64,000 nucleotides of DNA from Janibacter sp. DB-40. Its GTDB lineage: Bacteria > Actinomycetota > Actinomycetes > Actinomycetales > Dermatophilaceae. Of the stretch, positions 59,132 to 62,102 are shown one piece after another. The notes beneath the pieces are model-generated. The model was not told where the DNA came from and ran no database searches. It worked only from the letters and a program-made list of their open reading frames with translations. The stretch spans positions 744,001-808,000 of the forward strand of contig NZ_CP120360.1 in the NCBI RefSeq assembly GCF_029510815.1, written 5' to 3'. Within the stretch, counting starts at the first letter, position 1. Each line of letters starts with the position of its first letter. Both the position numbers and the translations under genes were made by a program.

Positions 59132-59206
59132 TCAGGCGTTCGGCTTCTTGCCGTGGTTCGCGTTCTTCTTCTTGCGGTCACGACGCTTGCGAGCGCGCTT
59201 GCTCAT
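59132..59206 (-). CDS. Small ribosomal protein bL37
   Basis: 24 residues, extremely basic (MSKRARKRRDRKKKNANHGK, ending KPNA). Size, the arginine/lysine run and the ANHGK(K/R)PNA end match bL37, the mini-protein found in mycobacterial 50S subunits and conserved in actinobacteria. A GAAGGAG site lies 6 nt before the ATG and a strong terminator follows. It is divergent from the peptide gene at 59336 across about 120 bp. Confidence 0.88.
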   Translation of the reverse strand: MSKRARKRRDRKKKNANHGKKPNA

Positions 59207-59335
59207 GGTGACTCCTTCGGGGTCGGTGTACTCGGCCGATCAGCGGCCCGGTGGTCAGGGGAATAATTCTGACACGGCAAGAAATGATCACCACATTCCT
59301 TCCCGCCATACCATTTTACTGGCATCATGTGCACT
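59207..59335. promoter_or_regulatory. AT-rich divergent spacer upstream of the NVEWA peptide gene
   Basis: This stretch, especially 59260-59330, is far richer in A and T than anything else in the window (for example AATAATTCTGACA and CATACCATTTTACT). It must hold the promoters of bL37 and of the peptide operon. TACCAT (59309-59314) is a possible -10 for the latter. No Shine-Dalgarno is evident before either ATG. Confidence 0.5.
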
Positions 59336-59566
59336 ATGAAGACAAAGATGATGCTCGCCGCTTCCGCCCTTGCCCTCTCCCTCGGCGGCCTCATTGGTGG
59401 CGCCAGCACTCAGGGGAACGTCGAGTGGGCGAAGTCCCTCAATGTCGAGTGGGCTGCCTCCACTCTCAACGTTGAGTGGGCCGCGTCCACGCGCAATGTC
59501 GAGTGGGCTGCGTCCAATCGCAACGTTGAGTGGGCCGCCTCCACCGACAACGTCGAGTGGGCCTGA
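59336..59566 (+). CDS. Exported peptide with six NVEWA repeats
   Basis: 76 residues from the ATG at 59336 (an ATG at 59327 would add MCT). MKTKMMLAASALALSLGG is a signal peptide, cleaved probably around GGAS/TQG (about residue 26). The rest is only repeats: NVEWA occurs six times, at nucleotides 59417, 59441, 59468, 59495, 59522 and 59549, spaced 24, 27, 27, 27 and 27. Full units are NVEWAAS(T/N)x, the first NVEWAKSL. Units differ mainly at third codon positions (aac/aat, gtc/gtt, gcg/gct/gcc), so the peptide is conserved by selection. Its end overlaps the next gene by 10 nt. I do not recognise a family; it may be a precursor cut into short peptides. Confidence 0.85.
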   Translation: MKTKMMLAASALALSLGGLIGGASTQGNVEWAKSLNVEWAASTLNVEWAASTRNVEWAASNRNVEWAASTDNVEWA

Positions 59567-60831
59567 GCGAGCAGAAGAGTTCACGTCCTAGGGGGTTGAC
59601 GGCGGCGCCTTCGCCTCATGAAGGCCCCCGCTCGACAACTCTCTACGTCGCTACTGTCGCCACGGCGGCAGTAGCGACGTTCGTCTGTGCTGTGGCTGTT
59701 GCCGGGACACCTCGGCCGATCAGCTGGGTGATCGCACTGGCGGTGGCGGCCTTTTTCGCATCGTTTGGGCGCCCGCAGGCGATTGGCCCGATCCAGTTCT
59801 CCGTCTCGGCCATTGTCCAGCTGGCGGCCATCCCGCTCACCGGTGCCGTGGGAGCAGCGCTGGTCTCTGTGGTTCCCTCGCTCACGGAGCGCAATGAAGC
59901 CGTCAAGAAGATCTTCAACGTGGCCCAACGTGTGCTCCTCGTCCTGGCCGGCTCGTTGGCATATTCCGCGGTGGGTGGAGTTGGCCTCAGGCCGGCACTT
60001 GTCGACATAGACCTGGTCGCGTTGGCCCTCACCATGGTTGTTGCTACGGCCGGCGCGGCACTCATGAACACTGCGCTCTTGGCGGGAGTGCTCCAGCGGG
60101 ACTCGGGTGGGTCGCTGGACTTCATCATCCGGAACGTGACGCTGCGGGTCGTCAGTTCCTACGCCACGTCCTTCGTCGCGGCCTACATCTTGGTGGTCCT
60201 GTGGTCCCCCGCACGACTGGGGTGGATCTCGGCGCTGTTCTTCCTGCCGTCGATCGTCGTCATCCAGTGGAGCCTGCGGCAGCTGGCGGGGGAGTGGGCG
60301 GTTCGCCGCGACGTGCTCGCCCCCTTCGTCACGGCGCTCGACACACGGCGTCCGGGAGCAGGCGAATCCAGCCGTCTGGCAGCCGGCGCTGCCAGTGCGA
60401 TCGCGGCGGCCGTTGGGCTGCGGCCGTCCTTCGTCGACAAGGTGGTCATGGCCGCTCGTCTGCGGGACGTGGGCCTGCTCGCGCTCGAGGACAAGCCGCC
60501 GGCGATCATCCGCCGCGACCATGCGGTGGCCTCGGCATCCGTCCTCGGTGAGGTCAGCTTCCTCGACGGATCACTGACGTACATCGCCGGCCACCACGAG
60601 CGTGTCGACGGTCAGGGACGTCCGGATGGTCTGGTCGGGGCCCAGATCCCTCTCGGCAGTCGGGTCCTCGCAGTCGCCGACGCCTGGAGCGACGCCGTCA
60701 CGGACGGGTGCAGCGCCGAGGAAGCGGTCCGGCTCTGCGAGGACCGCGTAGGGACCCATCTCGACGAGGTGTGCGTCAACGCCCTGCGCCGAGCCCACGG
60801 GCGAGGCCAACTCCCGGCGGTGGGCCGATGA
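59557..60831 (+). CDS. Membrane HD-GYP-like protein A (GYP half kept, HD lost)
   Basis: 424 residues from the GTG at 59557, which lies inside the peptide gene's last codons and suits coupled translation. About six or seven membrane helices fill residues 25-240 (for example LYVATVATAAVATFVCAVAV). The C-terminal domain follows HD-GYP order, but the first His is missing and HD reads RD (ARLRDVGLLAL, about 302). The later motifs remain: DHAVASASVLG, HHERVDGQGRPDGL (about 346-359) and RVLAVADAWSDAV. Canonical members degrade cyclic di-GMP; this one probably cannot alone. It may be a receptor for, or act on, the NVEWA peptide. Overlaps the next gene by ATGA. Confidence 0.85.
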   Translation: MGLSEQKSSRPRGLTAAPSPHEGPRSTTLYVATVATAAVATFVCAVAVAGTPRPISWVIALAVAAFFASFGRPQAIGPIQFSVSAIVQLAAIPLTGAVGAALVSVVPSLTERNEAVKKIFNVAQRVLLVLAGSLAYSAVGGVGLRPALVDIDLVALALTMVVATAGAALMNTALLAGVLQRDSGGSLDFIIRNVTLRVVSSYATSFVAAYILVVLWSPARLGWISALFFLPSIVVIQWSLRQLAGEWAVRRDVLAPFVTALDTRRPGAGESSRLAAGAASAIAAAVGLRPSFVDKVVMAARLRDVGLLALEDKPPAIIRRDHAVASASVLGEVSFLDGSLTYIAGHHERVDGQGRPDGLVGAQIPLGSRVLAVADAWSDAVTDGCSAEEAVRLCEDRVGTHLDEVCVNALRRAHGRGQLPAVGR

Positions 60832-62102
60832 CCAGGAGGCGCATCACACCCGGGCTCATCCTCTTCGCCTTCACCGTCCTCGTCGGCTCGTTCGCCGCGA
60901 TCCGGGGAGACCTGGACGGGCCGGCTCTCACCCCCTTCGTCGTGGTCGCGATCATCGCGATCATCATCGGCATGCAGATGCCGATCAGCCTGGCCCAGCG
61001 GGTCCTGACGCCGCTGACGACGGCGCCGGCTCTCGGGCTGATCCTCGCTCCCCTCTCGTTCGACGGGCGGGCACCCAGCGCTGCCTCGGTCCTGACCATC
61101 GTCTGGTTGAGCATGCTTGTCGGTGGACTGATCCGCCGACTGCGGGGAAAGCAGGTCGTGGAGGGGTCCCTCGCCGCCCGATTCCTCGGTATGACGCTGA
61201 CCGCCGTGCTGGCGCGGGACGTCAGCATCGGCGACACCACCGTGGTCGAGTGGGCCTTCGCGGACGGCACGCGTCGCTCGTGGGCGGTCTTCGCCCTCCT
61301 CGCGGTGGCGGCCGTGGGCGGCGTCTTCGAGAGCGTCCTGGAGAAGGCCATCATCTGGCTCGACGAGGGCGGCACGCTCCTGCGGATGGTGACCGACGAG
61401 ATCCGTCCGCTTGCCGGGATCGCCGCGGCCACGGCGTCCGCCGGTCCCCTCATCGCCGTGGCGCACCCGGTCCTCGACTGGGTGGCCATCCCGCTGCTCC
61501 TCCTGCCGGTGCTGATGATGTACCTCGCGGTCCAGTGGGTGCAGGACAGCCGCCGCGACCTCGAGGAGTCGATCGCCGCGATGTCCCGCCTGCCGGAGGT
61601 CAGTGGCTTCTCCCGCCCCGGCCATGGGCGCCGGGTCGCCGACATCGCGGTGCGGATCGCGAACGTCATGGGTGTCGATCCGGAGGTGTGCCAGCGCATC
61701 GAGCGCACGGCCCTGCTGCACGACCTCGGGCACCTCGGTCTGCCGGAGCCGCTGCCGGGCGGCAGGACGCTCAACGCCTCCTCCCAGGCACAGGACCGGA
61801 TCGCCGAGACCACGGTCCGGATCGTCGGCAGCGCACCGATGTTCGAGGAGCTGCTGCCGCTGCTGGACCAGGTGCGCACACCCTTCCGCCAGTCGCGTGA
61901 GTTCGGCGACCGCATCCCCCTCGAGTCGCGCATCGTGCGCGTGGCCAACGCCTGGGACGACGTCACCGAGGGTGCGCGCTCCCCGCGGGCCCGGCAGGTG
62001 GCCCTGGAGCGGCTGCACCTGGGTCTGGGGTACGAGTACGACCCGGACGTCGTCGCGGCGCTCGAGCAGGTCTTCGTCAGCGAGGGTGCGTTGGTGGTGT
62101 AG
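60828..62102 (+). CDS. Membrane HD-domain protein B (HD half kept, GYP lost)
   Basis: 424 residues, the same length and layout as protein A: about seven membrane helices (residues 5-245), then an HD domain. Here the first His (PGHGRRVADIA, about 265) and the HD pair (ALLHDLGHLGLPE, about 296-308) are kept, but the HHExxDGxGYP segment is replaced by LDQVRTPFRQSREFGDRIPL, and the later VAD is VANAWDDV. A and B are thus tandem paralogues with complementary losses, as expected for an obligate heterodimer. The ATG at 60828 overlaps the stop of A. Confidence 0.85.
   Translation: MTRRRITPGLILFAFTVLVGSFAAIRGDLDGPALTPFVVVAIIAIIIGMQMPISLAQRVLTPLTTAPALGLILAPLSFDGRAPSAASVLTIVWLSMLVGGLIRRLRGKQVVEGSLAARFLGMTLTAVLARDVSIGDTTVVEWAFADGTRRSWAVFALLAVAAVGGVFESVLEKAIIWLDEGGTLLRMVTDEIRPLAGIAAATASAGPLIAVAHPVLDWVAIPLLLLPVLMMYLAVQWVQDSRRDLEESIAAMSRLPEVSGFSRPGHGRRVADIAVRIANVMGVDPEVCQRIERTALLHDLGHLGLPEPLPGGRTLNASSQAQDRIAETTVRIVGSAPMFEELLPLLDQVRTPFRQSREFGDRIPLESRIVRVANAWDDVTEGARSPRARQVALERLHLGLGYEYDPDVVAALEQVFVSEGALVV

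Follow-up and report, generated by a model that had tools for sequence, protein, structure and literature searches.

A fast-changing micropeptide gene beside a membrane HD-domain protein pair in Janibacter and other Actinomycetota

The HdgA/HdgB pair of Streptomyces venezuelae (vnz24090/vnz24095) consists of a protein with six transmembrane segments and an HD-GYP domain followed by a second six-transmembrane protein whose HD-GYP domain is degenerate (PMC6205966). Both are found in the membrane fraction, and deleting them leaves development unaffected, in the authors' view perhaps because activating signals were missing (PMC6205966). Self-interaction of HdgB has been seen in a two-hybrid assay (PMC13232838). 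The same tandem arrangement, here called HD1 and HD2, occurs in Janibacter sp. DB-40 within a 64,000-nucleotide stretch (the window; contig NZ_CP120360.1, positions 744,001 to 808,000) of its single-contig 3.35-Mb genome, where the pair is preceded by a gene for a micropeptide with a repeated tryptophan-containing core. The passages on HdgA/HdgB in PMC6205966 mention no peptide, and no description of a peptide combined with an HD pair was found in the literature searched. Across genomes, the core of this micropeptide changes in step with the membrane domain of HD1, and this suggests a system of bacterial peptide signaling that has not been described.

The likeness to HdgA/HdgB is one of architecture, not of alignment with vnz24090. 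As in that pair, two membrane HD proteins are encoded side by side and the second is without HHExxDGxG and GYP. The locus differs in the micropeptide gene before the pair and in HD1 itself, which has RDVG in place of the HD histidine and so does not possess the intact HD-GYP active site expected of the first protein. Both proteins score above the Pfam HD_5 cut-off; the original prediction of an HD-GYP-like membrane pair is refined by their incomplete motifs. The 13 loci of group g161, Streptomyces-like by size, likewise carry HD1. They show no comparable small open reading frame (ORF), and the end of an RsrA-like gene lies upstream of HD1 in four of the five inspected.

Two families of peptide signals offer a further comparison. 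ComX of Bacillus is likewise a short, variable and species-specific peptide with an invariant Trp near its C-terminus, but ComQ prenylates it and its sensor is the histidine kinase ComP (PMC5331326), whereas HD proteins, and no ComP-type kinase, follow the peptide gene in the window. The Phr peptides of RRNPPA systems are, as proposed for the peptide here, exported as propeptides, some with tandem pheromone copies (PMC11343458). Their receptors, however, are cytoplasmic (PMC9765709), while the linked and covarying protein here is a membrane HD protein, and the adjacent genes encode such proteins instead of a cytoplasmic tetratricopeptide-repeat receptor.

The short ORF spans 59327-59566 on the forward strand and encodes 79 residues from its first ATG or 76 from the ATG at 59336 (Table 1), and the latter start, at MKTK, agrees with the ORFs of relatives. 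The repeat array scores 155-195 in Tandem Repeats Finder (TRF). Its NVEWA cores start at 59417, 59441, 59468, 59495, 59522 and 59549, spaced by 24 bp once and then by 27 bp four times, and are separated by the spacers KSL, ASTL, ASTR, ASNR and ASTD. The core codons vary only synonymously (AAC/AAT, GTC/GTT, GCN), and N[VIL]EW occurs nowhere outside the array in the six frames of the window. The ORF is thus as originally described, and the two gene overlaps that had been pointed out are present as well: the GTG start of HD1 (59557), consistent with the N-terminus MGLNDQ of the homolog P0003, overlaps the end of the ORF by 10 nt, and the HD1 stop and the HD2 ATG (60828) overlap as ATGA. The ORF matched 0 families in Pfam, NCBIfam and PHROGs, and five of its relatives gave no match above the curated cut-offs of Pfam and NCBIfam.

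Of the 58 genomes in the set of relatives, 33 contain a relative of HD1, including all 15 other Janibacter genomes. At wider ranks they occur in 33 of 396 genomes of the order (E 1e-50), 170 of 186 of the family (1e-30), 128 of 393 of the class (1e-45, where some matches cover the HD part only) and 51 of 296 of the phylum (1e-70). Across the family the gene order is a divergent bL37 gene, the small ORF, HD1 and HD2. Among the 15 Janibacter loci with upstream DNA (L007-L021), 13 carry arrays of two to ten units, with NVEWA, NVDWA, NVDWV, NWEWA, SVDWA, SWDWA, GADWA, GFDWA/GLDWA or NIDWA as the core; Trp is invariant at position 4, position 3 is Asp or Glu, and position 2 takes seven residues, all nonpolar or aromatic. 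Locus L021 has a single YDWA, and the precursor of L013 (genome G002) stops early at a Trp codon. L013 is the only Janibacter locus with such an early stop, and its HD1 carries a rare RHVG, as if the two were decaying jointly.

Outside Janibacter the ORF is usually short and single-copy and ends in a Trp core (WxW, SWED, WDP), with tails such as ...SDTWTWGT, MSKIVSAVEKFLSAQPHWTWEG, MKALIDIDPTTAVGPRIQTIWGWGG, ...IDVVQWNG, ...LTVIWDPVSR and ...LDGWQW. Arrays recur there too (YHNWEPKAG x5, SVLTWRP x4, GYTWQG x4, RGWDWKG x2, TWWWHP x2); by a hand count the arrays lie in 13 genera. Elsewhere in the class, outside the family, the ORF often has only 20-30 residues, as in MKKIVSAVEQFLQSGANWRW, MKKITAAVERMLSAEAAWSWR and MSALLVKLAYLAIESAWLVTTVAGWSWW. 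Beyond the class it resembles a bare signal peptide extended by 4-6 residues (MKTKIIVLLSSLAALILGGGAGWRW, MKRIFAILGAIAAVFLAAGANTTWH, MKARILMTLAALASLILAGGAGGRLG), in which Trp is not universal. With a strict script, ORFs of this last kind were found in 11 of 20 slots upstream of HD1, against 1 of 20 antisense slots and 23 of 1000 random windows. The check proposed beforehand, an inspection of the DNA upstream of homologous HD pairs, therefore did reveal repeat or Trp-core ORFs directly before them. The array thus derives from a short peptide that is single-copy in most loci, and across many Actinomycetota such rapidly changing micropeptides are encoded next to a membrane sensor.

A tandem repeat can arise by slippage, and the array could in principle be a DNA-level repeat in a spurious ORF; of 437 candidates scored with phmmer, the query alone gave a match, as such a reading would have it. 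Several observations make this explanation extremely improbable, beginning with the synonymous differences between units and the recurrence of the slot. From 205 HD1 rows (161 + 44 loci, some genomes twice), 186 loci with distinct sequence and enough upstream DNA were retained, and codon use and slot score were evaluated in 173 of these, the 13 g161 loci being excluded. ORFs ending in [WF]xW were found in 83 of 143 slots, 6 of 143 antisense slots and 120 of 2860 random windows. A slot score combining start, Shine-Dalgarno sequence, Trp and repeats was reached by 149 of 173 slots, 19 of 173 antisense slots and 152 of 1730 random windows, some of which may overlap the slot itself, and at the highest cut the numbers were 71, 0 and 35. 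Since the ORF picker favours a Trp near the end, the identically scored antisense and random windows provide the fair comparison. The picker also failed to find the arrays in L015 and L019, and it set some starts at a later Met.

Related short ORFs differ at 161, 124 and 322 sites at codon positions 1, 2 and 3, respectively, in 36 pairs that overlap each other and include one (L171/L173) in which different ORFs are compared. The synonymous rate (dS) exceeds the nonsynonymous rate (dN) in 30 of the 36 pairs, dN is the larger in four, and both are zero in two. Together with the synonymous-only differences between the NVEWA cores, this third-position excess upholds the earlier claim that the amino acid sequence of the units is selected. 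The occurrence of arrays in 13 genera and the core-specific covariation described below also argue against a spurious ORF.

Two or more core copies are present in 33 of the 165 loci of the unit and covariation set (from which the g161 loci, the loci where no ORF was picked and the doubtful picks L108, L174, L183 and L191 are excluded). From unit lists compiled by hand, the identity of units in Janibacter is 97% within and 62% between species, and in genus g43 it is 97% within and 59% between (permutation p 0.0013). Tandem amplification has thus occurred repeatedly, with units homogenised within each species but differing between species.

Covariation links the micropeptide to its neighbors as well. 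For the 161 loci with HD2 (12,561 pairs), the core distance, taken over nine residues around the last Trp, was regressed on four domain distances; 20 loci from other classes (L212-L231) stand outside these regressions. Over all pairs, the coefficient (beta) for the HD1 membrane domain was 0.39 and that for the HD2 membrane domain 0.20, each reached in 0 of 500 permutations, while the catalytic domains of HD2 (0.10, 11/500) and HD1 (-0.10, 487/500) gave lower values. When only pairs inside relatedness clusters were used and permuted inside those clusters, the HD1 membrane domain retained a beta of 0.40 (0/1000) and the HD2 membrane domain 0.20 (22/1000), with -0.03 (626/1000) and 0.00 (510/1000) for the catalytic domains of HD1 and HD2, respectively. 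In each of 12 variant runs (other clusters, a shorter core, without arrays, without Janibacter), 0 of 300 permutations reached the value for the HD1 membrane domain. Core covariation is therefore strongest with the membrane domain of HD1 and weaker with that of HD2, and the catalytic domains are not tracked. The leader of the peptide did not track the HD1 membrane domain within clusters (beta -0.17, 970/1000), and in six leader runs the HD1 membrane value was reached in 182 to 295 of 300 permutations. Unlike the core, the leader follows the HD2 membrane domain (beta 0.39, 0/1000 within clusters), a pattern that may reflect common ancestry or a second interaction. The covariation tests are not fully tree-aware; a physical interaction between the core and HD1 is supported by them, not proven.

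These results also bear on two explanations in which the peptide is no ligand of HD1. In the first, translation of the ORF would control HD1/HD2 in cis as a regulatory leader, through Trp supply or ribosome arrest; the position of the ORF directly upstream of HD1, with a 10-nt overlap in Janibacter, and the Trp codons at the end of most relatives would fit. Such a leader has no need for repeated cores, however, its tails are highly variable and some distant ones are without Trp, and its cores would not be expected to covary with a protein domain of HD1, making this explanation very improbable. Exported short Trp peptides are common antibacterials, and the product could instead be secreted toward another target, antibacterial or structural, and merely be co-transcribed with HD1/HD2. 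The constant linkage to HD1 and the covariation with its membrane domain make this very improbable as well.

The HD1 membrane domain is predicted to resemble the S-components of energy-coupling factor (ECF) transporters. The likeness lies in the predicted fold, and HD1 differs by its fusion to an HD domain. Two HD1 homologs, P0021 and the L036 protein, pass the cut-off of MASE9 (Pfam PF20972), while the membrane part of the window HD1 and the L023 protein gave no match to this model; in the literature searched, MASE9 was named only in an unrelated paper. CbiN, a small protein of an ECF transporter, places an outer loop over the pocket of the S-type protein CbiM (PMC7689651). This precedent supports the main rival, in which the micropeptide is never released but stays attached to the membrane as a tethered subunit that sets the activity of HD1 in the same cell, arrays adding binding sites instead of free signal. 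Several relatives of only 20-30 residues form an amphipathic or transmembrane helix and have no classical signal peptide, and the core-HD1 covariation would fit equally well. Arrays in which a Sec-type signal peptide precedes as many as ten identical cores, on the other hand, are better explained by the release of many copies, and a tethered subunit seems unlikely, if less so than the alternatives above.

Based on the conserved linkage, codon constraint, homogenised arrays, predicted fold and core-HD1 covariation, the reading that we favor, and consider probable, is that the variable exported peptide is a ligand and the S-component-type HD1 its membrane receptor. The precursor would use its hydrophobic leader to deliver a short core, in most cases with a Trp, to the membrane's outer face. 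The Janibacter precursor has several cores behind a Sec-type signal peptide, and proteolysis would probably set them free. The core may then bind the S-component-like domain of HD1, much as S-components bind vitamins and metals, and binding could alter the HD domain of HD1 and, via its homologous partner HD2, the downstream output, in the same cell or in its neighbors. The original prediction, a precursor with several copies that acts on the two membrane proteins, agrees with the concerted change of units and with the core-HD1 covariation, but the peptide is mostly single-copy elsewhere and the covariation with HD2 is weaker. We infer both the cleavage into identical short peptides and any signaling.

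The output of the pair is unlikely to be turnover of cyclic di-GMP in Janibacter, because the genome of the window contains no GGDEF (0) or EAL (0) domain and HD1 lacks the HD histidine; GGDEF was likewise found in 0 of 12 other Janibacter genomes. The histidine is replaced by Arg in all 16 Janibacter genomes, and HD is kept in most other HD1 rows (157 of 205 rows, some genomes being entered twice). Judged from the motifs, neither HD1 nor HD2 has a complete HD-GYP active site in Janibacter. The HD-GYP site of HD1 has been altered by several routes among the genera (H to R, D to E or loss of HHE), and the peptide slot is retained.

Table 1. Features of the micropeptide locus, in window coordinates
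Feature	Position	Strand	Description
bL37 ribosomal protein gene	59132..59206	-	NCBIfam NF047428, 50.7 bits (cut-off 30)
TGGCATCATG element	59320..59329	+	Directly before the start codon; single occurrence in the window
Peptide precursor	59336..59566	+	76 aa; Sec-type signal peptide, then six NVEWA units
Array of six NVEWA cores	59417..59563	+	TRF and six-frame reading
HD1 (HdgA-like)	59557..60831	+	Predicted S-component-like membrane domain and degenerate HD-GYP domain
HD1 motifs	RDVG 60463-60474; HHERVDGQG 60592-60618	+	RDVG replaces the expected HDxG
HD2 (HdgB-like)	60828..62102	+	Membrane protein homologous to HD1; HDLG 61719-61730, without HHExxDGxG

The divergent bL37 gene is the conserved left neighbor in the family, being upstream in all loci inspected except L043. 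Beyond it lie a SigH/SigR-type sigma factor gene (TIGR02947) and then its RsrA-like partner, assigned by sequence; the right neighbor of the HD pair is sodN. In 12 of the 14 Janibacter loci examined, TGGCATCAT stands about 10 nt before the start codon despite differing surrounding DNA, and this element may be a promoter or operator element. An HD2 that is 92% identical (P0054) is listed in UniRef under Raoultella terrigena, an entry that looks contaminated or mislabelled.

In conclusion, the locus may represent an undescribed class of peptide signaling in several classes of Actinomycetota, though we propose this only tentatively. In such a class, with precursors reduced to as little as a leader and 4-6 residues, an S-component fold would have been reused as a peptide sensor feeding HD-type domains, here without cyclic di-GMP; core and receptor would co-evolve, the dose would be tuned by tandem amplification, and the missing input of HdgA/HdgB would be a peptide. 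If the micropeptide were a tethered subunit instead, it would still be a microprotein family at a widespread locus, matching no family model searched. To our knowledge, few peptide signals are known in Actinomycetota. If the proposal is true, these bacteria would have a new class of peptide signaling with its own receptor fold, the S-component-like sensor domain and the orphan HdgA/HdgB pair would gain a type of ligand, and the many natural pairs of core and receptor would be available for tests of specificity.
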